From a virus: a stretch of DNA of 20,985 nt. Shown in pieces: positions 1,689-12,968 of the stretch. The notes under the pieces are model-generated. The model was not told where the DNA came from. It was given only the letters and a program-made list of their open reading frames with translations, and searched no databases. The position numbers were made by a program, and so were the translations under genes. Numbering within the stretch: the first letter of the stretch is position 1; each line of letters opens with the position of its first letter. The DNA lies in IMG/VR virus record IMGVR_UViG_3300012936_006294, positions 1-20,985 of that record; one strand, written 5' to 3'.

Positions 1689-2287
1689 TTTAACTTTATC
1701 TTGACTGATATGTCGATATCCATAGTGGGTATTCTTAAGTGGTTGGCTAAATTATGCTTGACAGCCTCTTTTGAATCTATAAACCAATCTGCATGTTTCT
1801 TTTTATCTACTATATCCATAAAGTAGTCATCGTCTTTTCCGCAGTTCTGAGCCATCATCGTGTATATCGCTTTATTTAGACGGTCAGCTTCTTTAGCTCC
1901 AGCCTTGAGCTCTTCTACCTTACCCCAATCCATAGAAGATACATCGTGAATCATTATAGTTGCGTTTTTATCCATAAATCTTCTTCCCTCTTCACCAAAA
2001 GTAAAAAGAACCGCGCCACAAGACATTGCTTTTCCTTCTACCACTGTGGCTATGGGTAGCTCTGAATTTTGTATCGCTCCTATCATTGACATGAGACTGT
2101 AAACTTGTCCTCCGTAAGAATCAATAACAATTGGTATTATTTTTTGACCTGTGTTATGTGCCGCAGCAATTTCCGCTGAAAACTTTCTAGCTGAATCTTC
2201 ATCAAATTTGTTTACCCTTATCATAATAGGGTTTTTTCTTAGCTCAACTTCCTTTATTAGAGGAGAAATTTTAGATACATACTTCAT
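1685..2287 (-). CDS. clpP: ClpP-like serine protease
   Basis: This is a 200-aa ClpP/crotonase-fold peptidase. The catalytic triad is visible: Ser89 in EGKAMSCGAV, His114 in IMIHDV and Asp167 in HADWF. The Ser-His spacing of 25 residues equals that of E. coli ClpP. The oxyanion-loop segment is DSYGG (56-60) rather than the usual NSPGG. There is no long propeptide. In phages such proteins act either as ClpP-type proteases, needing an ATPase partner, or as prohead proteases. Here the gene sits between nrdA and thyX, far from any visible capsid gene, joined to nrdA by TAATG and to thyX by ATGA. A role in protein turnover during infection is therefore as likely as capsid maturation. Its substrate is unknown. 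Confidence 0.88.
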   Translation of the reverse strand: MKYVSKISPLIKEVELRKNPIMIRVNKFDEDSARKFSAEIAAAHNTGQKIIPIVIDSYGGQVYSLMSMIGAIQNSELPIATVVEGKAMSCGAVLFTFGEEGRRFMDKNATIMIHDVSSMDWGKVEELKAGAKEADRLNKAIYTMMAQNCGKDDDYFMDIVDKKKHADWFIDSKEAVKHNLANHLRIPTMDIDISVKIKLK

Positions 2288-4641
2288 TATCCACTACACA
2301 TTTCACAGGCTTCTGGGTTTTCTAAAGAGCATACAAGCGCAGCCTGTTCTTCTGCTGTCATGCCCCTGTTTTCTTCTATTGTTATTTTTTTAGATTGGCT
2401 AGCTGGCTTTGATCTTAGATAATACATGCCTGTTTTTAAGCCTTTTTCCCAAGCGTAAAAGTGCATAGAGTTAACTTTTCCTACGCTAGGTTCGGCTAAA
2501 AATAGATTCATTGATTGAGACTGGCATATATAAGGTGCTCTGTCTGCAGCCATTTCTATTATTGACTTCATAGACATTTCCCACACAGTTCTGTATCTTG
2601 ATTTTATATCTTGCGGTATATAGTTTATGTGCTGTATGGATCCGTTCCCTCTTATTATATCATCTTTTACATCTTCTGACCACATGTCAATCTCGATAAG
2701 GTCTCTAACTAAGTGCTTGTTGACCATTATAAATTCGCCAGACAATACTCTTCTTATGTATATGTTGGAAGTAAAAGGCTCAAAACACTCGTTATTTCCT
2801 AGTATTTGACTAGTAGAAGCTGTCGGCATAGGGGCTACAAGTAGCGAATTTCTTAATCCGTATTTTTTAATTTTGTTTTTTAAAGATTTCCAGTTATAGC
2901 TTTCGTCGGGCTCAATTTGCCATAAGTCGAATTGCAAAATTCCTTCGCTGGCAGGGCTTCCTTCAAAAGTGCTGTAAGGATTTTCTGACTTAGCAAGATC
3001 ACAAGATGCCTTTAAAGCTCCGTAGTATATAGAAGAAAAAACACGCTTATTTATTTCTCTAGCTATATCTGAATCAAAATCAATTTTTAGCGTAGCAAAT
3101 AAATCAGCTAGGCCTTGTATTCCTATTCCTATCGGTCTATGTAGACTGTTAGATACTTCTGCAGGCTCTGTAGGATAGTAGTTTCTATCAATTATTTTAT
3201 TTAGGTTTTCTGTTATTTCATAGGAAGCCGACGCTATTTTGTCGTAGTCGACTTTTTTATCAGTAATAAACCTATTAACTGCTATAGAAGCAAGGTTACA
3301 TACAGCTGTCTCTCCATCCTTTGAATATTGAATAATTTCAGTACACAAGTTGCTCGACTTTATAGTGCCCAGGTTTTTTTGATTAGACTTAAGATTGCAC
3401 GAATCTTTGTATAAAATATACGGAGTACCGGTTTCGATCTGGGCCTTAATAATTTTTACCCACAGATCCCTTGCTTTTATTTTCGCTCTATACTTTTCTT
3501 TGTCTACGTACGACCTGTATAGACTGTTAAACTCTTCTCCCCACACGTCAGATAACCCAGGGCATTCTTTAGGGCACATCAAATACCAATAATCATCATC
3601 TTTTACAGACTGCATAAAGTGATCTGGTATCCAAAGCGCGTAAAATAAATCTCTGGCTCTTAGCTCTTCTTTTCCGTGGTTTTTCTTTAATTCTAAAAAA
3701 TCTTCGATGTCAGCGTGCCATGGTTCTAGATAAACAGCGAATGAACCTTTTCTTTTTCCACCGCCTTGATCTACATATCTTGCTTCTTCATTCATAACTT
3801 TTAACATGGGCACTATTCCGTTGCTAGTACCTCCTGTTCCGGCTATGTAAGACCCTTTAGCTCTAACGTCATGTATATGAACACCTATTCCACCGGCATG
3901 CTTTGATATTTCCGCCATTTCTAAAAAAGTTTCAAATATGCCTTTGATAGAATCATCTTTCATGGCCTGTAAAAAACAAGAAGACATTTGCTGCCTAGAT
4001 GTTCCCGCGTTAAAGAGCGTAGGGGTTGCATGTGTATAATATCCTTGCGACATACTTTCATAGCACTTTATCGCACTGACTATATCTTCCCCGTGTATTC
4101 CTAAGGCCACTCTCATCCACATGAACTGGGGCGTCTCTAGTATTTGGCCATTGTGTGACTTCAAGTAGCCCCTCTGAAGAGTCATTAGACCAAAATAGTC
4201 TAGATTATAGTCTCTGTCGTGTATGATAGATCGATCTATTTTTCTTGCAAAAGAAGGTTTAGACACTAGGTCGTGAATTTCAGCGCTTACTAGAGGAGCG
4301 TGTTTTCCAGTCGTAGGATCTATATAGTCGTACAATATTCCTATATTTTCAGAAAAACTTAGTGGTATAGATTTTTGCCACCTAGTTATCAGTATTCTTG
4401 CTCCCAGGAGAGAGTAATCAGGATGAATTGTAACCATCCTTGCGCACTCTTGGGAAATCATATAATCTATTTGTTCTGTAGTTATTCCGTCTATTACAGA
4501 TTCAGCGACTTTTCTTGTTACATTTAGCGGACTAACAAAGCTATTATTTAGTCCTTTACACTGATTCCTTATTCTTCTAGTTATTTTATCAAACTTTATA
4601 GTTTCTTTTTCTCCGCTACTTTTAACGACGTATTGATGCAT
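2287..4641 (-). CDS. nrdA: Ribonucleoside-diphosphate reductase, class Ia large subunit
   Basis: NrdA reduces ribonucleoside diphosphates to deoxy forms in complex with NrdB. An ATP-cone regulatory domain covers roughly residues 1-90, so allosteric control by ATP/dATP is probable. Catalytic residues are present: Cys222 (SSCFLQAMKDDS), Asn431/Cys433/Glu435 in SSNLCTEI, and Cys448 in AVCNLAS. The radical-transfer tyrosine pair is in GMYYLRSKPA. The C-terminal redox pair CEMC is at 779-782. At 784 aa it is full length. The NLCTEI and AVCNLAS context looks closer to the eukaryotic-type class Ia branch than to E. coli NrdA, judged from memory. The start overlaps the nrdB stop as TAATG. Confidence 0.97.
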   Translation of the reverse strand: MHQYVVKSSGEKETIKFDKITRRIRNQCKGLNNSFVSPLNVTRKVAESVIDGITTEQIDYMISQECARMVTIHPDYSLLGARILITRWQKSIPLSFSENIGILYDYIDPTTGKHAPLVSAEIHDLVSKPSFARKIDRSIIHDRDYNLDYFGLMTLQRGYLKSHNGQILETPQFMWMRVALGIHGEDIVSAIKCYESMSQGYYTHATPTLFNAGTSRQQMSSCFLQAMKDDSIKGIFETFLEMAEISKHAGGIGVHIHDVRAKGSYIAGTGGTSNGIVPMLKVMNEEARYVDQGGGKRKGSFAVYLEPWHADIEDFLELKKNHGKEELRARDLFYALWIPDHFMQSVKDDDYWYLMCPKECPGLSDVWGEEFNSLYRSYVDKEKYRAKIKARDLWVKIIKAQIETGTPYILYKDSCNLKSNQKNLGTIKSSNLCTEIIQYSKDGETAVCNLASIAVNRFITDKKVDYDKIASASYEITENLNKIIDRNYYPTEPAEVSNSLHRPIGIGIQGLADLFATLKIDFDSDIAREINKRVFSSIYYGALKASCDLAKSENPYSTFEGSPASEGILQFDLWQIEPDESYNWKSLKNKIKKYGLRNSLLVAPMPTASTSQILGNNECFEPFTSNIYIRRVLSGEFIMVNKHLVRDLIEIDMWSEDVKDDIIRGNGSIQHINYIPQDIKSRYRTVWEMSMKSIIEMAADRAPYICQSQSMNLFLAEPSVGKVNSMHFYAWEKGLKTGMYYLRSKPASQSKKITIEENRGMTAEEQAALVCSLENPEACEMCSG

Positions 4642-5606
4642 TAGAATTCTTCACCCCAAGTAAGGTCGTTATTTCCGGAAACGACGCCGGCTTTAGCGTA
4701 TTCAGACACTTTTCTTTCGAAGAAATTTGTTTTTCCTTCTAGGGCCAACATTTCCATCCACTGAAAGGGATTTCTCGTTCCATACATTTTTGAATATCCG
4801 AGATCTGTTAATAATCTGTCTGCAACAAACTCAATATAAGAAGACATTGAGCTGGAATTCATCCCTATCAAAGAAACAGGCAACGATTCGCATATGAATT
4901 CTTTCTCTATAGAAACAGCTTCAGATATGATTAGCTTGACTTCTTCTTCTGACAGCTTATTTTTTAAATGATCCCTATATAGCATAATTGCGAAGTCGGT
5001 ATGCATAGCCTCGTCTCTACTAATAAGCTCATTAGAAAAAGTTAAGCCAGGCATTCCCAGACCTCTATGTTTTAGCCAGAAAATAGCGCAGAAAGATCCG
5101 CTAAAAAATACTCCTTCTACGGCAGCGAATGCTATTAACCTGTGAGCAAAACTAGTGTCACTATCAATCCACTTTAGTGCCCAGTCTGCCTTTTTATAAA
5201 CAGAAGGTAAGTTCTCTATTGCGTGAAGAAGCTGCAGTTTTTCTTCTTCATTGTCTACATAGGTATCTATTAAAAGACTATAGGTTTCGCTATGTATTGT
5301 CTCCATAGCCGCTTGAAACGTATAGGCTGCTCTAGCCTCAGGATACTGCACTTCGTTTATAAATCTATAACATAAATTTTCATTAACTATTCCGTCGCTA
5401 GCGGCAAAAAAAGCTAAAACGTGCTTTATAAAGTGCTTTTCGTCCTTACTGAGGTTTTTCCAATCTACTAAATCTTGGTTTAGATCAATTTCTTCTGCTG
5501 TCCAAAAGCTAGCTTCCTGCTTCTTAAATGAAGTCCAGATGTCATCGTGCTTAATAGGATAAATTACAAATCTATTTTTATTTTCTTCCAAAATTGGTTC
5601 GTTCAT
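4641..5606 (-). CDS. nrdB: Ribonucleoside-diphosphate reductase, class Ia small subunit
   Basis: NrdB holds the di-iron centre and stable tyrosyl radical that start catalysis in NrdA. The ferritin-like ligands are all visible: Asp71 ([13 protein letters not shown]), Glu102 and His105 (METIHSETY), Glu164 ([12 protein letters not shown]), and Glu199 and His202 (RDEAMH). The radical Tyr109 is kept, so this is a Tyr-radical rather than a Tyr-less subclass. The C-terminus ends acidic and aromatic ([10 protein letters not shown]), as expected for the tail that docks on Nrd[14 protein letters not shown] is strikingly like eukaryotic R2. A Shine-Dalgarno GGAG precedes the ATG, which overlaps the upstream stop by 4 nt. 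Confidence 0.97.
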
Positions 5607-6091
5607 TGGTTCTCCGAGTTGGTTTGATCGACGGCTGTCTTTTCTAAGTATTCTAAATCACTAACGACACCAATAGACTTAGCGGTAGAAACAAAAATAA
5701 TTTTTGCTGGGATCCTAAATCCTTTTTGCAAAACAACATCTTTCTCACCCAGGTTTAAAAAACTCACCTCAACCTCTTCTGTATCTCCGCTAAAAAAAAC
5801 ATTTTGCCTAACAATTACGCCCGTTGAATTTAATTGGCTAGTTCCTACTAACATGCCGACTACTCCGGAAGGTAAAGCTAGCTTAATTCCAGTCTTAATA
5901 GTTGTGCAGTCTTCTTCTCCGTATGCAATATACTTTGTTCTTCCTAGTATAATAGACTCTTCGGACATGTTGAATAAGTCTATATAGCCATCTCCTATTA
6001 TTTCATCAGCAACGTCTCTAGGCGACTGATTGCTAGAAACAAGCTCCTCTAGACATTCTTGAGTAAACCTAAAACTAACTTGCTTTTCCAT
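5603..6091 (-). CDS. dUTPase/dCTP deaminase-fold protein with degenerate active site
   Basis: The 162-aa protein follows the layout of the trimeric dUTPase/dCTP deaminase superfamily. It has GYIDLF (35-40, motif 1-like), [10 protein letters not shown] (48-57, dCTP deaminase-like), [10 protein letters not shown] (67-76), and a jelly-roll core ending [23 protein letters not shown] (111-133). The catalytic positions are not conserved. The RSG/RSS of motif 2 is GTSQLN. The GVID..Y of dUTPases is NVFFSGD (97-103). The Glu of the dCTP deaminase LEFYN motif aligns with Ser in VSFLN. No glycine-rich motif 5 is visible. It sits in the dNTP operon between helicase and nrdB with a good Shine-Dalgarno (AGGAAG). 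It may be a regulatory or structural relative rather than an active dUTPase. Confidence 0.72.
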
Positions 6092-7484
6092 TTTCTTCCT
6101 CTACCTGCTTCCACTTTTTCTTTAAAAGCATTTTCATATCATTTTGGTTTTGATTTACGGCTTCCTCTAAAGTAAGAGAATTGTCATCCAGTATTTCAAA
6201 AGTACTCTTTGAAGTGTCAATGTGAATAGGAAAAAGTATTCCGTCTCTACCAGCTCTATTTTTAGCCACGAATAATCGGCCTGAACCTGTTGACTTTTCT
6301 GTAGCTTTTCTAGATATAGATAGAACCAAGTCCGCTACCATAGCCTTACCGTAGGCTTCAGACATATTTTCTAAGCCGACAATATCTGAATTAGCAGAAT
6401 CTCTATTGGCCTGCGATGCAGTCCATATAGGAATGTTTAGATCCATCGCTAAATTTCTAAGCTCTTCATATATTAACTTTAGCTCATGCCTAAGAGAATC
6501 GTAGCTTCTAGTCGACCTCATAATGTCAGCATAGTCTATGATGATAACAGAAGGCCGAAACCCTTTTAGCATTAATTTTTCTACATGGTTTCTAATTGTT
6601 ATTACTGTAGCCGACCCTGTGGGGTATTCTTTTATAACAAGTCTTCCGTACTCAGAATTTTCATAATGTTCCATGACTTTTGATTTCTTGTCCTGGACTT
6701 CGTTAGAAGGTATGTTGCATAAATTAGAATCATATCTAAGGCCAACCGCGTGCTCTGTTAACTCGAAAGTATAATGAAGAACATTTTTTCCGCTCTTCAT
6801 CGCGTTAGCACCCATAGCAACAAGCCAATGAGACTTACCTACGCCGGTGTTTGCAGTGACTACCCCGATTTCTCCTCGGCCTAAACCACCTTGAAGAACA
6901 TCCTTGGCGTCTAGTCTAGGTAATCCGGTAGGACAAACTTGACGATTTATCTTTACAAACCTAGCCTCTGCATCTTCAAAAAAATCATGACCTGTACTAC
7001 TAGGTAGGCCTACAGAAACTGCATGTCTCATTAGAGTTAATACGTGCTCAAATTTCTCAGTCTGTATAAGATCTACAGCCTGCTCTAAAGCATCCTTAAA
7101 GGCTTGCTTTCTACAAAAATCTAATGACTTGTCTTTTACAAAAGCAAGATCGCTAACATCGGGACTAGACTTTATTCTGTGCAAAAACTGAACAATTTGA
7201 TCTCTTAATATAGTGTCATCTCTTTCAGAAAGAGAATCTTTTATTATTGTTACCAGCAACCCAAGAGTAGGAAAACACTTGTATTTTCTATAGTAAGAAA
7301 AAAACTTGTCGCTAAGATATTCCAAATAAGAAACGTCGAAAAAAGTCGGATCCATAACCTCTACCATCTGGGCCGCCCATTCTCTGTCAGATATCAAAGA
7401 TTGAAATATCTTTTCTTGAAACGACTTTCCGTAGTGGCCGAAATGAGGGTTGCTTGAGCGAGTTGGCAAAAAATCTTCAGACAT
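6075..7484 (-). CDS. Replicative DNA helicase, DnaB/T4 gp41 family
   Basis: This is a RecF/DnaB-type hexameric helicase that unwinds the fork 5' to 3' and would recruit a primase. The N-terminal ~150 residues form a helical domain like the DnaB N-domain. The ATPase domain starts near residue 185 with GLPRLDA. Walker A is ANTGVGKSH (211-219), the catalytic Glu region is TFELTEHAVGLR (239-250), Walker B is IIIDYAD (314-320), and the sensor Gln is in TASQANR (355-361). Its length of 469 aa fits gp41/DnaB. No primase domain is fused and no primase gene is visible. The ATG overlaps the 5' nuclease stop by 8 nt, with AGGA upstream. Confidence 0.93.
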   Translation of the reverse strand: MSEDFLPTRSSNPHFGHYGKSFQEKIFQSLISDREWAAQMVEVMDPTFFDVSYLEYLSDKFFSYYRKYKCFPTLGLLVTIIKDSLSERDDTILRDQIVQFLHRIKSSPDVSDLAFVKDKSLDFCRKQAFKDALEQAVDLIQTEKFEHVLTLMRHAVSVGLPSSTGHDFFEDAEARFVKINRQVCPTGLPRLDAKDVLQGGLGRGEIGVVTANTGVGKSHWLVAMGANAMKSGKNVLHYTFELTEHAVGLRYDSNLCNIPSNEVQDKKSKVMEHYENSEYGRLVIKEYPTGSATVITIRNHVEKLMLKGFRPSVIIIDYADIMRSTRSYDSLRHELKLIYEELRNLAMDLNIPIWTASQANRDSANSDIVGLENMSEAYGKAMVADLVLSISRKATEKSTGSGRLFVAKNRAGRDGILFPIHIDTSKSTFEILDDNSLTLEEAVNQNQNDMKMLLKKKWKQVEEENGKAS

Positions 7485-8433
7485 TATTTTTCCTAATACT
7501 AGTCATACTTGAATAAAAAGTGTCAACATCAAAATTCTTTATTCCTAGTTTTGATATTGATTTTAATAATTGCATTTTGTTGGCAGATTTACATTGATTT
7601 TCTAAACAAAAGTCAATTTTTTTTATTTGCTCTGCAGACAAATTAGATATATCTAGATACATTAGCTTCCAGTTTCTTCTAGCTATGTCTATAGACTCTA
7701 TAATATTTTTATGTATCTTTAGTTTTTTCTTATCTTCTAGTTTTTTACAGCTCTCAAACACATCTTGAACGCTAAAAAAAATGTCACTGTTTAGCTCTGG
7801 AAATCTTTTAGACAAAGATCTAAATCCTGCTAGCTTTATTCCGTCTACACCGTCTGATGGATCTCCTATGAAAGATCTGGCTGTGCAAAAATTTGTTGCT
7901 GATATTCCAAATTTGTCTATTAGGTCTTTTATCGTTATAAACTTTTTTTGGCCTGGAGACCACTGTATAGTTTTTTTAGATAACAGTTGATATAAATCTT
8001 TATCTGAAGATGCTACAACAGACCTCTGTTCTATTTTGTATTTTACAATATACCCTATTATATCGTCTGCTTCACAGTTATCTATATAAACTTGGTCTAC
8101 AGGAACAGATCTTAGTACAGAAACTATTTTAGCTATCTGGTTGTTTCTGTTTTCTACCGTGTCAGGAATTTGATCGCCATAGTACCTGTTTAGCTTTTGA
8201 GGTCTTTTGTTGTTTTTGTAGTTTTTAAAAATGGCCCTTCTTCTAGAAGAGCCACCTCCTTCCCATGCTATTATTACCCTGGAAGGATTAACTCGAGTTA
8301 CTAAGTAACCTAACGACTTCAGAAAACCTACGACTCCACCTACGTGATTTCCAGAATCATCTATAGTTGGATTAACAACAAAATGCCTCATGAATAGATT
8401 TAAGCCATCTATTAACAGTATCGGCCTTTTCAT
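7477..8433 (-). CDS. 5'-3' exonuclease / flap endonuclease, T4 RNase H-like
   Basis: The 318-aa protein is a FEN/PIN-fold nuclease that removes RNA primers and 5' flaps from lagging-strand fragments. Metal-binding acidic residues are visible in order: Asp9 (LIDGLN), Glu59 (IIAWEG, where many relatives have Asp), Glu121/Asp123/Asp124 (CEADDIIGY), Asp144/Asp146 (SSDKDLYQL), and Asp191/Asp195 in the helix-3-turn-helix start GDPSDGVDGIKL (190-201). The arginine/lysine arch RRRAIFKNYKNNKRPQK (64-80) fits DNA binding. It stands alone, not fused to a polymerase, as in T4. A strong Shine-Dalgarno GGAGG precedes the ATG, which overlaps the recA stop by 1 nt. Confidence 0.92.
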   Translation of the reverse strand: MKRPILLIDGLNLFMRHFVVNPTIDDSGNHVGGVVGFLKSLGYLVTRVNPSRVIIAWEGGGSSRRRAIFKNYKNNKRPQKLNRYYGDQIPDTVENRNNQIAKIVSVLRSVPVDQVYIDNCEADDIIGYIVKYKIEQRSVVASSDKDLYQLLSKKTIQWSPGQKKFITIKDLIDKFGISATNFCTARSFIGDPSDGVDGIKLAGFRSLSKRFPELNSDIFFSVQDVFESCKKLEDKKKLKIHKNIIESIDIARRNWKLMYLDISNLSAEQIKKIDFCLENQCKSANKMQLLKSISKLGIKNFDVDTFYSSMTSIRKNNV

Positions 8434-9620
8434 TATTCCTCCGGGTTTATCAGCTCATCTGAAATTTCCATTGAAATGCTTTTGACCTCTTCATATGACT
8501 CTACGTCGATGTCGACGTTTGAGTTATCTGACATGGTTTTTATCATAGCTCTCTGCATTAATAGATCGCAATAGGGAGCATAGTCTGGATTTTTTAATAT
8601 TTCGTCAAAATCTGCTTTATAAAACTTTTTCTCTAATATTACTTCTCCAGTTTTAGAGTCGTTTACTATTAGTGATTTCCATGCGCCGGTACCTGTTATT
8701 GCAACTGTTCGACCTTCAAAAGTTTCCGGTCCGTGTTTTCTAAGGACATCAAAAACCTGCTCGTGTTCCTTTATGCCTACCCCAAAATGTATCTCAAAGT
8801 TTACTGTTCTAAAAGGAGGAGAAACCTTGTTTTTAATAGTCTTTGCAGAAACGTTTATTCCAACAACTTCTTTATTTTTGTCCAGTATAGGTTGTCCAGC
8901 GCCAAGTTTAATTCTTACAGAAGAGTGAAAAGGAATAGCTTTTCCGCCAGGAGTTGTCGTCGGATCGCCAAACATAACTCCGATCTTTGTTCTAATTTGG
9001 TTTAAGCAAATCATTAAAACATTCTGGTTAGCTATAACTCCTGTAATTTTTCTCATGCCTTTTGAGATGGCTCTAGCCTGCAACCCTATAGTTTCTTTGT
9101 CATAATCCCCGACAAGCTCAGCCTTAGGAGATGTTGCTGCGACAGAATCCCAGATGATAGTAATCGGAACATCTTTATTCATGGCTTTTGCCCTGAGTAT
9201 AGTTGCTTCGGCTATAGAAAGAACTTCTTCTGTGCAGTGTGTATCTACGTAGACAAATCTTTTACTGATATCTACCCCTAGTAAAGACAGATTTTCTACA
9301 CTAGTTGCATTTTCAGTATCAATATAGACAACTATTCCTCCGGCGTCTTGCGTAGACTTAGCTATCTGTATAGCGATGTGTGACTTGCCTATAGAAGGAG
9401 GGCCGAATATTTCTACGATTCGGCCCTCAGGCAATCCACCGTCAGGTCTATTTGAAACTATGTAATCTAAAAGCTTAGAGCCGGTGCTGATCCAACGATT
9501 TACGTGAGTAGGTGAATCGTCATGAGCTAAGTTATAAGCAATTTTTGCACCATGCTCTTTATTTAAAGACTTTATTAAGTCGTCTGTAAAATCTTGGGCT
9601 TTGTTAGATTTTTTAGCCAA
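8433..9620 (-). CDS. recA: RecA-type recombinase
   Basis: This protein forms filaments on single-stranded DNA and drives strand exchange for repair and recombination-dependent replication. Walker A is GPPSIGKS (73-80), the catalytic Glu104 lies in YIDTENA, and Walker B is ITIIWDS (153-159). The L1/L2 region reads NQIRTKIGVMFGDPTTTPGG (207-226). It is nearly the bacterial RecA sequence and unlike T4 UvsX. At 395 aa it is slightly longer than E. coli RecA, with a C-terminal acidic tail ending in ELINPEE. The start codon is TTG, with AAGGA about 10 nt upstream; no ATG occurs near enough to replace it. It lies 16 nt after the SSB gene. Confidence 0.95.
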   Translation of the reverse strand: MAKKSNKAQDFTDDLIKSLNKEHGAKIAYNLAHDDSPTHVNRWISTGSKLLDYIVSNRPDGGLPEGRIVEIFGPPSIGKSHIAIQIAKSTQDAGGIVVYIDTENATSVENLSLLGVDISKRFVYVDTHCTEEVLSIAEATILRAKAMNKDVPITIIWDSVAATSPKAELVGDYDKETIGLQARAISKGMRKITGVIANQNVLMICLNQIRTKIGVMFGDPTTTPGGKAIPFHSSVRIKLGAGQPILDKNKEVVGINVSAKTIKNKVSPPFRTVNFEIHFGVGIKEHEQVFDVLRKHGPETFEGRTVAITGTGAWKSLIVNDSKTGEVILEKKFYKADFDEILKNPDYAPYCDLLMQRAMIKTMSDNSNVDIDVESYEEVKSISMEISDELINPEE

Positions 9621-9636: not shown

Positions 9637-10425
9637 TTATAGGTCTTCTAGATCTGCAAAAGCATCATCTAGAGACTTGTATTTTGTTGTGTCGCTCTGA
9701 CTTCCAGCAGTACTTTGATTAGAGCTTGAATTGCCGCCTCGGAACGTACCTTCTGAGGATGATTCTTCAGTGTCTCCATTAAGCCAATCGTTGACTATCT
9801 TCTCTAATTCTTCGTAGGTCTTTAATGTAAAGAGTTCGTCTAGAGAAGGAATACTGTCCAGCATCTTTTTAGCCTCTGTCGTACTTTCGGTCAGCTTAGA
9901 TGATTTACCCCTAGGTCTAACTTCTGTTGAAGCCCACATGCGGCCTGGCGCCTTTGTACAGATAACCTTTACATCTCTTCCCTCTATAGGATCCGTGATG
10001 TCTCCGTAATCCTCGTCGAGCATTATGTTGAGAAGAGACTGGTACACCATCTTTCCAAAAGACCAAAGCATAACGCCTTTATCTTCCTCGCCTCGAACGA
10101 CTACGGGAGCATAACACCTCATCTTCGGATATAGCTTCTTTGCTAGCTCGTAAGATTCTTTAGAGCCATCATCTCTCAGTTTGTTTATTAACTCCTGGAT
10201 CGGATCGTCTTTTCCGAACTGGTATGGCGCCAATAGTCCAGGGTTGTTTCCGATATTGTAGTAAAACCACCTTTCTTTAAATGGCTGCCCATCGTTATCT
10301 GGGAAAGATAAGATTCTAACCGTGTGTTCTTCTCCCTCAACGGGCCTCCACATAGAGTTTTTCTTTGTGTTTTGACCTGATAGCTGGTTTAGCTTTCTTC
10401 GAATTGCGTCTAAATCAATTGCCAT
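9637..10425 (-). CDS. gp32-like single-stranded DNA-binding protein
   Basis: This 262-aa protein looks like a T4 gp32-family SSB. It has a basic N-terminus (MAIDLDAIRRKLNQL) for cooperative binding and an aromatic-rich core with WRPVEGEEHTVRIL (26-39) and RWFYYNIGN (52-60). A Ser/Gly/Asn linker (about 220-250) leads to an acidic tail, DDAFADLEDL, that would recruit partner proteins. The His/Cys zinc ligands of T4 gp32 are not seen. It opens the replication operon with recA, nuclease and helicase. Its Shine-Dalgarno AGGAGG, 5 nt from the ATG, is the best in the window, suggesting high expression. The AT-rich leader suggests autogenous translational control as in T4. Confidence 0.88.
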   Translation of the reverse strand: MAIDLDAIRRKLNQLSGQNTKKNSMWRPVEGEEHTVRILSFPDNDGQPFKERWFYYNIGNNPGLLAPYQFGKDDPIQELINKLRDDGSKESYELAKKLYPKMRCYAPVVVRGEEDKGVMLWSFGKMVYQSLLNIMLDEDYGDITDPIEGRDVKVICTKAPGRMWASTEVRPRGKSSKLTESTTEAKKMLDSIPSLDELFTLKTYEELEKIVNDWLNGDTEESSSEGTFRGGNSSSNQSTAGSQSDTTKYKSLDDAFADLEDL

Positions 10426-10505: not shown

Positions 10506-10760
10506 TTATTTGGCTAATTTTGCGTTGCCGAAAGATTTTCCGGCAACCTTGTGTGCAGGCTTTTTTTTCTTTGATCTTTTATTTGGGTATGTTGAATCTA
10601 CACCTAGCGGTACAGTTACTCCTGCTACTGCTCCTGCCATAGATGCTTCCTTCTCTTCACTGTCCATTTTTTCTTTTGGAAAATCAGGCTCTAGAAGTAA
10701 ATCTTTTTTTTCCAATATCATTTTTATAAATTGTCTTAATTTTGATTCTAAGATTATCAT
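10506..10760 (-). CDS. Small lysine-rich protein, possible virion/DNA-associated
   Basis: An 84-aa protein of unknown function. It begins with an amphipathic helix, ESKLRQFIKMILEKK (5-19). A small Ala/Gly/Val patch follows (SMAGAVAGVTVPLG), then a strongly basic tail, KRSKKKKPAHKVAGKSFG (61-78). The tail suggests nucleic-acid binding. The initial helix resembles that of the neighbouring 187-aa protein, a pattern I associate with virion proteins of large phages. The ATG follows the upstream stop by 4 nt with no Shine-Dalgarno, implying coupled translation. An A8 run encoding the lysines contains the heptamer A_AAA_AAG in frame at 10560-10566. A longer antisense frame covers the same DNA but lacks support. 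Confidence 0.65.
   Translation of the reverse strand: MIILESKLRQFIKMILEKKDLLLEPDFPKEKMDSEEKEASMAGAVAGVTVPLGVDSTYPNKRSKKKKPAHKVAGKSFGNAKLAK
10524..10547 (-). other. 10-bp RNA stem-loop upstream of the SSB leader
   Basis: On the minus-strand transcript the inverted repeat GTTGCCG/CGGCAAC extends through a G-U and two A-U pairs to a 10-bp stem closing the tetraloop AAUC. The G-U wobble becomes a C-A mismatch on the other strand, so the fold suits the transcribed strand. It lies within the last codons of the 84-aa gene, about 15 nt before its stop. No U-tract follows, so it is not a classical terminator. An mRNA-processing, stability or frameshift-stimulating role is possible. Confidence 0.55.
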
Positions 10761-10764
10761 AAAA

Positions 10765-11331
10765 TTAATTATGAGTTGAAAGGACTATACCACGAGAAGT
10801 TTGTAACCCTATGACAACGGGGTTATTCATGTTTCCGTAAAATTGATTTTCAGGAAGGTGCAAACCTTGCGATGTTAATACCGCTATGTATTCGCTTTGA
10901 TCTAAGTTTATACCCAAAGAAGAACATAACCATAAAGTTCTGTTGGATATAGACATCCTTAGACATTCTTCGTTGTACTTATAGTGTTGTCCCAGTTTTT
11001 CTCTGTGCCAATCAGAATCTTGGCTGTGATATAAATCTTGTTCAAAGTCGCCTAGTCTTCCTAATTCATGGAGTAAAGAAACTTTAACTAACGATTTTTT
11101 ATTATTTAAATGTTTCGACATTAAGCTAGCATTGGATGCTACCGACAATGAAAAGTCTATTAACGCACCTGGGTATCCTCCGTCTTTTAGCTTTAAAGAC
11201 CTGGGGGCTACAACTAATCTTTCGCCAAAAGAAGACTCTATTTTGTTTATAGAATCACTGCTTACGACTTTAGACAGTATGCTTAAATATTTTTCAAAGT
11301 TAGCTATTAATTCTTGTGGTTCTTTAATCAT
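10765..11331 (-). CDS. HD-domain phosphohydrolase-fold protein, metal ligands lost
   Basis: The 188-aa protein matches the scaffold of the HD-domain hydrolase family found in large phages: APRSLKLKDGGYPGALIDFSL (42-62), SLLHELGRLGD (85-95), YHSQDSDWHREKLGQHYKYN (101-120) and a region ending LPENQFYGNM (159-168). The residues expected to bind metal appear replaced. The His of the GGLxDHS segment is Phe60. The HD doublet is His88-Glu89. The later HDG is TSQG (153-156). The last Asp region reads LQTSRG (176-181). The fold is probably retained and catalysis lost. It may serve as a binding or scaffolding protein. No Shine-Dalgarno precedes the ATG, which lies 30 nt after the 187-aa gene. Confidence 0.72.
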   Translation of the reverse strand: MIKEPQELIANFEKYLSILSKVVSSDSINKIESSFGERLVVAPRSLKLKDGGYPGALIDFSLSVASNASLMSKHLNNKKSLVKVSLLHELGRLGDFEQDLYHSQDSDWHREKLGQHYKYNEECLRMSISNRTLWLCSSLGINLDQSEYIAVLTSQGLHLPENQFYGNMNNPVVIGLQTSRGIVLSTHN

Positions 11332-11361: not shown

Positions 11362-11925
11362 TCAGAACTGTTTTAATAAAATTGTATTTCCAGAACCTTG
11401 AACAAACTGAACTCCTGATTCCAAAGTTATAAAATCCGACACTATGCACGCATTTAACATTTCGGCTAAAAACCTAACGCCGTTTTTTTTATCTATTCCA
11501 GAAACCGTAACCTCTACGACATCTTCCAATATTTTTTCGCCTGTAGTATCCATAGCAGAATTTTTTTTAATAGCACCTAGATAAGCCTGAGAAAGAAGCT
11601 CGTTACCATGTATTCCTTGGTTTATTACATCTAGAACTTTTGATATTGCGTCTCCAGAAGGCCTGCTATTTATACCTAGGTCTCTCAACAGTCCTGGCGC
11701 TGTTTTTGGAGATCTAGCTCTAGACTTTAGGTTTGAAATAAACTTTTGAGGTCTACCACCTGATCCAAACGCCCCCTTTGTAGATATAGTTCCGGCGTTC
11801 TTCGAAGACTTGGGCTTACTCTCCTTGGGATCTGGCTCTTTCTCTACTTCAGCAGCTTCAGCAGCTTCTTCGTTTTCTTGAAGTACCTCTCTAAGGATCT
11901 TATGTATATTTTCTAAATCTCTCAT
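11362..11925 (-). CDS. Unknown 187-aa protein with charged linker, virion-type N-terminus
   Basis: I do not recognise this family. Residues 4-17 form a helix, LENIHKILREVLQE, similar in pattern to the start of the 84-aa protein. An acidic Ala/Glu stretch follows (18-31), then a Lys/Pro/Ser linker (32-48) and a basic Gly/Arg region, FGSGGRPQKFISNLKSRARS (53-72). The remaining ~110 residues look globular and hydrophobic, ending GNTILLKQF. Such modular charged proteins are often packaged in virions, but that is inference. The gene starts 11 nt after the polymerase stop with no Shine-Dalgarno, so coupling to the polymerase gene is likely. Confidence 0.7.
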   Translation of the reverse strand: MRDLENIHKILREVLQENEEAAEAAEVEKEPDPKESKPKSSKNAGTISTKGAFGSGGRPQKFISNLKSRARSPKTAPGLLRDLGINSRPSGDAISKVLDVINQGIHGNELLSQAYLGAIKKNSAMDTTGEKILEDVVEVTVSGIDKKNGVRFLAEMLNACIVSDFITLESGVQFVQGSGNTILLKQF

Positions 11926-11936
11926 GATATTAATTA

Positions 11937-12968
11937 TTAAACTTTGGTGATTTTTGCAGCAAGATTAACTCCGCTGCACTCTAAATTTATAATAGAACCG
12001 GGCCTATGTTTTTCTATAAACTCTCGTGATGCATCAAATATTAGGGCATCATGTATAATATAGTAAGGCTTTATCGAAGTTTTATTTTTTTTACAAAATT
12101 TAGAAAACATCGATATGGAACAGTCAGCTACACTACTTTGCAGATAATGACTAAGAATTAACCCCTTGTCTTTTGTTAAAAGAGGACGTCCAAAATAATT
12201 TCTAAAGTCGTCATTATCAAAAGAGTTAGAAAGCATTTTGATCAAAAAACCATATCTAAAATAATTTTTTACTTCTGATATTACCTTTCCTGCGTCTATG
12301 TTGGAAGGAAGAGAGTTTGACAGCCTACTTTTTGACTGGCCGTATAAGCTACAAATAACTGCTGTTTTAATCTGCAGCCTAGTCAAATCTGGCATGTTGC
12401 GTTTTTTTGATATGTCGTCATAAACATCTTCTGGCATATCTATATTAGACACATGAAGTGCAAACTTAGGTTCAGCAGATATTAAGTCTATTTGCATAAC
12501 GTGCCCGTTTTTGTATGTTGACTTAATGCACTTTCTCAAAGATGAGGGTGCAGTCAAAATATTAAAGCCGGATGTTACAGTCATTCTACCAGTAGCTGTT
12601 TTTGAGTTTGAATACTCTGTTTTTTTTAGTCTTCTAAAATTTACGTTTTCTAGATTTTTATGCTTAAGCTTTAGCTTATTAGCTTTTTCAAAGTCAATTT
12701 CAGGCGATTGAAGAGATTCTATAAACTCAATACAGCCTTCATGAAACAGTGCATAGTCTACGTTTTTCTTTACAGAAAAAATATCTTCTATTTTAGAGTC
12801 TATCTGTCTGCTAGTTTTTCTGCAAACATGGTTTGGTACATATTTTTTCCAATCCGATGGCTTTACCTTTAAGGATTTCATTAATAGCAAATAATCTTTG
12901 CTTAAAGGGTATTCCGATCCAAATATTTCTATTAAGGAACTCTTTGTTTTTTCGCTAATTGACAACAT
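11937..12968 (-). CDS. Minimal family A DNA polymerase (palm/fingers only)
   Basis: At 343 aa this is far shorter than PolA-family enzymes but carries their polymerase motifs in order. TGR is at 126-128. Motif A is QIDLISAEPKFAL (159-171) with Asp161 and Glu166 in the D-x4-E spacing. Motif B is RLQIKTAVICSLYG (197-210) with Arg197, Lys201 and Tyr209-Gly210 at PolA spacing. QSSVADCS (277-284) matches QGTAAD. Motif C is IIHDALIFD (304-312). Both catalytic aspartates (161, 307) are kept. Motif C reads HDA instead of HDE, and the O-helix Phe aligns with Ile205. No 3'-5' exonuclease is present. It may be an accessory repair or virion polymerase. No good Shine-Dalgarno is present, but a late-promoter-like box lies upstream. 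Confidence 0.85.
   Translation of the reverse strand: MLSISEKTKSSLIEIFGSEYPLSKDYLLLMKSLKVKPSDWKKYVPNHVCRKTSRQIDSKIEDIFSVKKNVDYALFHEGCIEFIESLQSPEIDFEKANKLKLKHKNLENVNFRRLKKTEYSNSKTATGRMTVTSGFNILTAPSSLRKCIKSTYKNGHVMQIDLISAEPKFALHVSNIDMPEDVYDDISKKRNMPDLTRLQIKTAVICSLYGQSKSRLSNSLPSNIDAGKVISEVKNYFRYGFLIKMLSNSFDNDDFRNYFGRPLLTKDKGLILSHYLQSSVADCSISMFSKFCKKNKTSIKPYYIIHDALIFDASREFIEKHRPGSIINLECSGVNLAAKITKV

Follow-up and report, generated by a model that had tools for sequence, protein, structure and literature searches.

The window, by which we mean the whole 20,985-bp IMG/VR contig analysed here, carries a replication operon lying directly after baseplate genes and headed by an open frame for a 343-aa family A DNA polymerase (PolA). 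The genes of the operon, from the polymerase downstream, are the following:

11937–12968, minus strand: minimal family A DNA polymerase, 343 aa, polymerase domain only; open frame with an ATG start
11362–11925, minus strand: 187-aa conserved protein between the polymerase and single-strand DNA-binding protein (SSB) genes; no family above cut-off, position conserved
10765–11331, minus strand: 188-aa conserved protein; no family match, position conserved
10506–10760, minus strand: 84-aa small conserved protein; position conserved
9637–10425, minus strand: gp32-like single-strand DNA-binding protein (PF08804, E 6.7e-10; phrog_1192, E 2e-18)
8433–9620, minus strand: RecA/UvsX-like recombinase; conserved synteny, named from sequence and the annotation of syntenic genes
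7477–8433, minus strand: separate 5'-3' exonuclease of FEN type, proposed trans partner of the polymerase (PF02739, E 1.8e-26); conserved downstream of the polymerase
6075–7484, minus strand: DnaB-like replicative helicase; syntenic genes of isolates carry helicase/DnaB annotation

A scan for promoters and terminators around the polymerase gene gave a number of sites not above that in shuffled sequence. All family A motifs occur in the 343-aa protein in the order TGR, A, B, Q849 and C, with the following positions and conservation across an alignment of 35 family members (numbering of E. coli Pol I for the equivalents):

12585–12593, minus strand: TGR motif, residues 126–128, with R668; G and R in 35/35, T in 34/35
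12465–12488, minus strand: motif A, DLISAEPK, residues 161–168, with D161 = D705 and E166 = E710; D and E in 35/35
12339–12380, minus strand: motif B / O-helix, RLQIKTAVICSLYG, residues 197–210, with R197 = R754, K201 = K758, I205 at the F762 position and Y209-G210 = Y766, G767; R, K, Y and G invariant
12123–12140, minus strand: QSSVAD, residues 277–282, with Q277 = Q849; Q in 35/35
12045–12056, minus strand: motif C, IHDA, residues 305–308, with H306 = H881, D307 = D882 and A308 in place of E883; HDA invariant in 35/35 exonuclease-anchored homologues

A sequence-only reading of this DNA had described these signatures without naming the strand, and every residue it named lies where it had placed it; its remark that the protein has no exonuclease domain and only ~125 residues ahead of TGR holds as well. 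The stretch before TGR is too small for any exonuclease domain, the 5'-3' exonuclease domain of Pol I type is absent from the chain and encoded by a separate gene instead, and neither the sequence nor the predicted structure contains a DnaQ-like 3'-5' exonuclease domain, active or vestigial.

Taken alone, the 343-aa sequence gave no PF00476 match in a Pfam search, no PDB match with phmmer and no phage match with tblastn, and a direct scan of viral contigs gave no convincing relatives; the sole hint was its best PHROG match, a weak one (E 0.01) to PHROG_15971 'DNA polymerase I', a family of short phage PolAs (376 positions), while other members of the family described here match PHROG_17, the long phage PolAs, better than PHROG_15971. 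Relatives of the polymerase became visible through anchoring on the neighbouring exonuclease gene (7477–8433), which brought in 80 loci, with 89% identity in the nearest. In ~39 of these 80 loci, the same position upstream of the exonuclease is occupied by a homologue of the 343-aa protein, and among those long enough to reach that position none was seen without it. A pattern scan brought the number of relatives to 184. The 35 aligned members measure 343–415 aa where complete and share 22 invariant columns, all motif residues among them, including the equivalents of R668, D705, E710, R754, K758, Y766, G767, Q849, H881 and D882 in every member. Searched against solved PolA structures, the family profile matches Aquifex Pol I, Pol nu, Taq and Bst polymerases with E-values of 7e-11 to 4e-9, and of 12 large contigs with a polymerase of the window type, 10 give a PF00476 match above the curated cut-off of that profile, the closest relative (G001) falling below it.

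The gene is under purifying selection, with dN/dS (Nei-Gojobori) of 0.08–0.23 among relatives with computable dS and of 0.22 between the window and its sister locus L001. The two polymerases are 51% identical, and the exonuclease, RecA, gp32 and DnaB proteins of the same loci 89–97% identical, so that the minimal PolA evolves faster than the neighbouring replication genes. That a single sequence had no significant library match could have fitted a chance open frame or a fragment of a broken full-length PolA; this explanation, which retains practically no probability, is refuted by the 184 relatives, the invariant motifs, a dN/dS well below 1 and a coherent predicted fold (see below), with a frame break in one relative only, and the closest homologues also lack exonuclease domains (about 340–430 aa) and are not full-length PolAs. 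The invariant motifs, low dN/dS, coherent fold and conserved family thus identify a conserved functional gene, not a broken PolA. The one interrupted relative is L044, where the N-terminal part of the minimal PolA lies in another frame (L044:4880-5305 and 5058-6116), as the result of a true mutation or of an error in sequencing.

AlphaFold2, run with the family alignment, predicts a complete palm-fingers-thumb fold for the 343-aa protein (mean pLDDT 92.5), which is that of a PolA polymerase domain of Klenow type and aligns to KlenTaq (3lwl_A) over 323 residues with a Z-score of 24.1 and an rmsd of 3.6 Å (VIA-align), at an identity to solved enzymes of ~12–16% in the structural alignment. Like bacterial DNA polymerase I of the Klenow/KlenTaq kind (PF00476, DNA_pol_A), the protein has motifs A, B and C in order and keeps R668, D705, E710, R754, K758, Y766, Q849, H881 and D882; it differs from these enzymes in its 343-aa length without 5'-3' or 3'-5' exonuclease domain, and in the changes of E883 to Ala and of F762 to Ile. 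The 343-aa protein is therefore a small family A polymerase domain, and it is very probably active as a polymerase. The two findings that the sequence-only reading had named as refuting it, a fold other than a polymerase palm and close homologues of full PolA length with this copy broken by a frameshift, are both absent.

The Ala in motif C (A308) and the Ile in the O-helix (I205), which had already been picked out in the sequence-only reading, recur throughout the family: the E883 position is Ala in 35/35 aligned members, and the F762 position is Leu in 29, Ile in 3 and Met in 3. Both are fixed family features and not signs of damage, and neither predicts inactivity. An altered motif C is unexceptional among phage PolAs: in those sampled, it reads HDA in Microbacterium phage Shocker, HDS in LpeD, BSP36, Terranova and DS1, and HDQ in the replicase of Flavobacterium phage immuto. 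The PolA of phage Tt72 has Ser at the E883 equivalent, and its S616A variant retained 76% activity, while D384A and D615A brought activity down to 4% (PMC9324360), so that Ala at this position is compatible with activity. Leu762 variants are common in virioplankton PolAs and are capable of primer extension (PMC6302109, PMC9069017).

These fixed substitutions, together with the missing proofreading domain, might also be taken as marks of a low-fidelity translesion or mutator polymerase, and a low-fidelity role has been proposed for the actinobacterial PolA2 with its vestigial exonuclease (PMC12926913). We regard such a function as improbable, since the change of Phe762 to Leu in Taq reportedly gave a slower but more accurate enzyme (PMC6302109), no evident lesion-bypass insertions like those of Pol theta or Pol nu are present, and R754, K758, Y766 and E710 are all retained. 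The actinobacterial PolA2 / APEX polymerases resemble the window protein in being PolAs whose proofreading is inactivated and whose presumed place is an accessory one beside the replicase (PMC12926913). PolA2 retains its exonuclease domain in vestigial form, bearing a clamp-binding motif; this domain is absent from the window protein, and a beta-clamp gene (PF02768) was found in none of the 12 large window-type contigs.

The window protein lies at the short end of its family, in which complete stop-to-stop frames run from 355 to 468 codons with a median of 407. The longer relatives have ~60 additional N-terminal residues, which in the model of one of them (L055, pLDDT 90.1) form four short strands and one helix, and in structural alignments residue 1 of this model already falls at the beginning of the exonuclease domain in Klenow (350), T7 (1) and Bst (315) polymerases. 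These alignment ranges suggest that the N-terminal extension of the longer relatives may be a shrunken remnant of the exonuclease domain, most of which the window protein and its sister in L001 would then have lost; such a loss would be derived, as these two proteins branch from among the longer forms in the phylogeny. In a tree of the polymerase core, all 33 window-type proteins form one clade (98/89), and the minimal PolAs of the type found in phage immuto another (100/100). The union of both types against full-length phage PolAs is weak (85/65), with long branches, and the window family scores equally with hhalign against immuto-type minimal PolAs and full-length phage PolAs, so that the two exonuclease-less types may have had one origin or two.

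Two isolated phages carry counterparts of this gene. The 441-aa 'DNA polymerase family A' of Flavobacterium phage vB_FspM_immuto (QQO91919.1) is likewise a PolA domain without exonuclease, within the same gene order of polymerase, two small genes, SSB, RecA, 5'-3' exonuclease, DnaB and ribonucleotide reductase (RNR), but it is only ~15% identical in a profile alignment, with His for Glu in motif A, no Arg at the R754 position and YDA as motif C. The His at E710 and the YDA motif are fixed across the 13 immuto-type minimal PolAs that were aligned (among L102 and L279-L358), and the N-terminal part of this type appears, by eye, to resemble a degraded exonuclease domain (GYIIPVSHDEG). Microcystis phage Mel-JY01 has a 408-aa protein (WWT39333.1) that matches the family profile with an E-value of 1.5e-10, lies upstream of a gene at the SSB position, RecA, 5'-3' exonuclease and helicase, and shows D..H in motif A and YDA in motif C; it is annotated as hypothetical and not as a polymerase. 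In the same record (PP395634.1), the exonuclease is labelled 'DNA polymerase I' and the true PolA domain nearby 'hypothetical protein' (L101:19920-20960 and L101:14525-15751).

The loss of E710 and of Arg at R754 in the immuto type indicates drift at some catalytic positions, and the gene of the window directly follows baseplate genes, two facts that would fit a catalytically inactive PolA relic with a structural or regulatory role, for instance in DNA binding, or a protein packaged in the virion. We consider this very unlikely, as D705, D882, R754, K758, Y766 and Q849 are present in 35/35 window-type proteins and would not be kept by a relic, and no feature for targeting to head or tail was found. 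Packaging in the virion, which had been raised as a possibility from the sequence, gained no support in sequence or synteny beyond the adjacent baseplate genes.

We counted synteny in 64 window-type loci that were fetched independently by polymerase motif and have at least 5.2 kb of downstream DNA: the gp32-like SSB and RecA genes lie downstream in 64/64, the 5'-3' exonuclease in 60/64 and DnaB in 55/64. Where the exonuclease is missing (four loci), the retrieved stretch stops at an insertion in RecA or shortly past RecA. The exonuclease is equally found downstream in 33/33 immuto-type loci, and in both types, wherever detected, it lies 2.3–5.5 kb from the polymerase. A FEN-like 5' nuclease is near-universal in bacteria, where a solo protein supplies it if Pol I is absent (PMC12926913). 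A partner for proofreading in trans is not consistently present, as PF00929 occurs in just 3 of 12 large contigs and far from the polymerase; PF01612 exonucleases were not found in these 12 contigs. A recognisable DNA ligase is encoded by only 1 of the 12, so that the host ligase would be needed and a self-contained set for Okazaki-fragment maturation is not evident.

That the minimal PolA heads the replication operon and is the sole family A polymerase in most contigs searched would be expected of the main replicase of the phage. This is extremely unlikely, since a complete family C replicase is encoded by each window-type contig that extends far enough, and syntenic homologues of the minimal PolA occur beside a full-length PolA or a PolB. 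Of the 12 large window-type contigs, 11 carry a DnaE-type family C polymerase (PF07733) with E-values of 3e-53 or better, and the twelfth (G007) starts within a DnaE gene (E 3.6e-51); PolB and a second, full PolA were not found in these 12. Four of six further window-type contigs also have DnaE, and the two that lack it (G020, G021) reach no more than ~15 kb beyond the polymerase on its downstream side, ending short of the usual place of DnaE or close to it. In the nearest relative, DnaE is present in full, from its PHP domain through the catalytic and finger domains to HHH. Besides its minimal PolA, phage immuto encodes as main replicase a full-length PolA (immuto35A_71) that combines an exonuclease domain with a polymerase domain, and all 6 immuto-type records searched carry both forms, while the main replicase of Mel-JY01 is a PolB. 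The minimal PolA thus occurs together with replicases of three families (A, B and C), which bears out the earlier suggestion, formed from the sequence, that it is not the main replicase. Compared with a T7-type (PolA3-like) replicase, the window protein lacks the proofreading domain and is not the sole replicase, as DnaE is co-encoded; it is a PolA polymerase domain, neither a Pol I in the full sense nor a T7-type replicase.

The 484-kb genome of an uncultured phage (LR756508.1; L103:14390-15745, record 47415–48068 and 260623–266900) has a 456-codon homologue of the minimal PolA as well as a PolB in two frames and a partial, 575-codon DnaE-like frame, so that as many as three families of polymerase may be encoded together. 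In the excerpted text of two studies of jumbo phages, a DnaE NTPase domain is reported from about half of one marine cluster (Weinheimer and Aylward, PMC9123017) and groups are defined by their replicases (Iyer et al., PMC7824862); the excerpts of both leave a stand-alone PolA domain unmentioned.

Given the fixed linkage to the exonuclease and the existence of solo 5' nucleases in bacteria (PMC12926913), the simplest reading is that of a Pol I in two pieces. We therefore propose, as the probable explanation, that these phages have a split DNA polymerase I with the minimal PolA as its polymerase half, which fills gaps together with the trans-encoded 5' nuclease while another enzyme acts as main replicase. 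The polymerase half would consist of palm, fingers and thumb alone, with neither a 5' nuclease nor a 3'-5' proofreading domain in the chain, and the 5'-3' exonuclease activity would come from the separate gene of the same operon (7477–8433). The main replicase, in this lineage the DnaE-type family C enzyme, would extend Okazaki fragments; the FEN-type nuclease would strip RNA primers and damaged flaps; the minimal PolA would extend 3' ends by short patches, closing the gap on gp32-coated DNA; and a ligase, mostly that of the host, would seal the nick. Short-patch repair would be feasible with the same set of proteins. In these large marine phages, the task of a minimal PolA encoded a few genes from a 5'-3' exonuclease, in genomes with another main replicase, is probably to close gaps and not to replicate the genome.

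Against this proposal stand the scarcity of ligase genes noted above and the faster evolution of the polymerase relative to the neighbouring replication genes. Linkage to the exonuclease is no proof of joint action, and RecA and gp32 in the operon fit recombination-coupled synthesis equally well. The minimal PolA could accordingly be a repair polymerase that extends 3' ends invaded by RecA/UvsX (D-loop synthesis), with the exonuclease serving end resection and not primer removal, and indeed the RecA and gp32-like genes lie between polymerase and exonuclease in the window and in most loci. We hold such a role to be rather unlikely: many T4-like replication modules place these genes side by side in any case, the 5' nuclease belongs to the primer-removing FEN type (PF02739), and D-loop synthesis can be carried out by the main replicase in other phages, as in T4.

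Returning to the split Pol I, its occurrence with different replicases leads us to suggest, tentatively and with slightly less than even confidence, that it represents a widespread and undescribed class in large tailed phages, in which the exonuclease domain would have been lost stepwise and the polymerase kept beside a trans-encoded 5' nuclease while the replicase was swapped among families A, B and C; the filling of Okazaki gaps would then be a conserved module that does not depend on the replicase. A literature search of incomplete coverage found no paper describing a stand-alone minimal PolA class, which does not prove novelty; at the level of annotation the kind is known, as the immuto copy was deposited as 'DNA polymerase family A'. 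Accounts of phage replisomes usually centre on a single main polymerase, and here a second, minimal PolA shares an operon with a 5' nuclease while the main replicase varies (family C, B or full-length A). If confirmed, this would mean that phages maintain, in the form of two proteins, a dedicated module for Pol I-like gap filling, and the enzyme would be among the smallest natural family A polymerases, with a possible use as a compact polymerase without exonuclease.

Several further features of these loci deserve mention. The RecA/UvsX gene is split in two frames in L056 (251 + 144 codons), L150 (7620–8375 and 9827–10330) and L151 (9810–10565 and 12017–12520); in the latter two the halves lie ~1.45 kb apart, as expected of the insertion of a mobile intron, intein or homing endonuclease. 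The window has separate genes for NrdA (784 aa) and NrdB (321 aa) at 2287–5606, and most relatives (L001-L080) have a longer NrdA-like gene (~820–850 codons) and no NrdB match, which suggests that the ribonucleotide reductase was replaced between lineages. Finally, a similar short charged helix (LRQFIKMILE, IHKILREVLQE, EKIRIIVKRVLNE) starts the 84-aa (10506–10760) and 187-aa (11362–11925) proteins of the window and ends a 428-aa protein of Mel-JY01 (L101:16533-17819), and may be a shared targeting or interaction tag.
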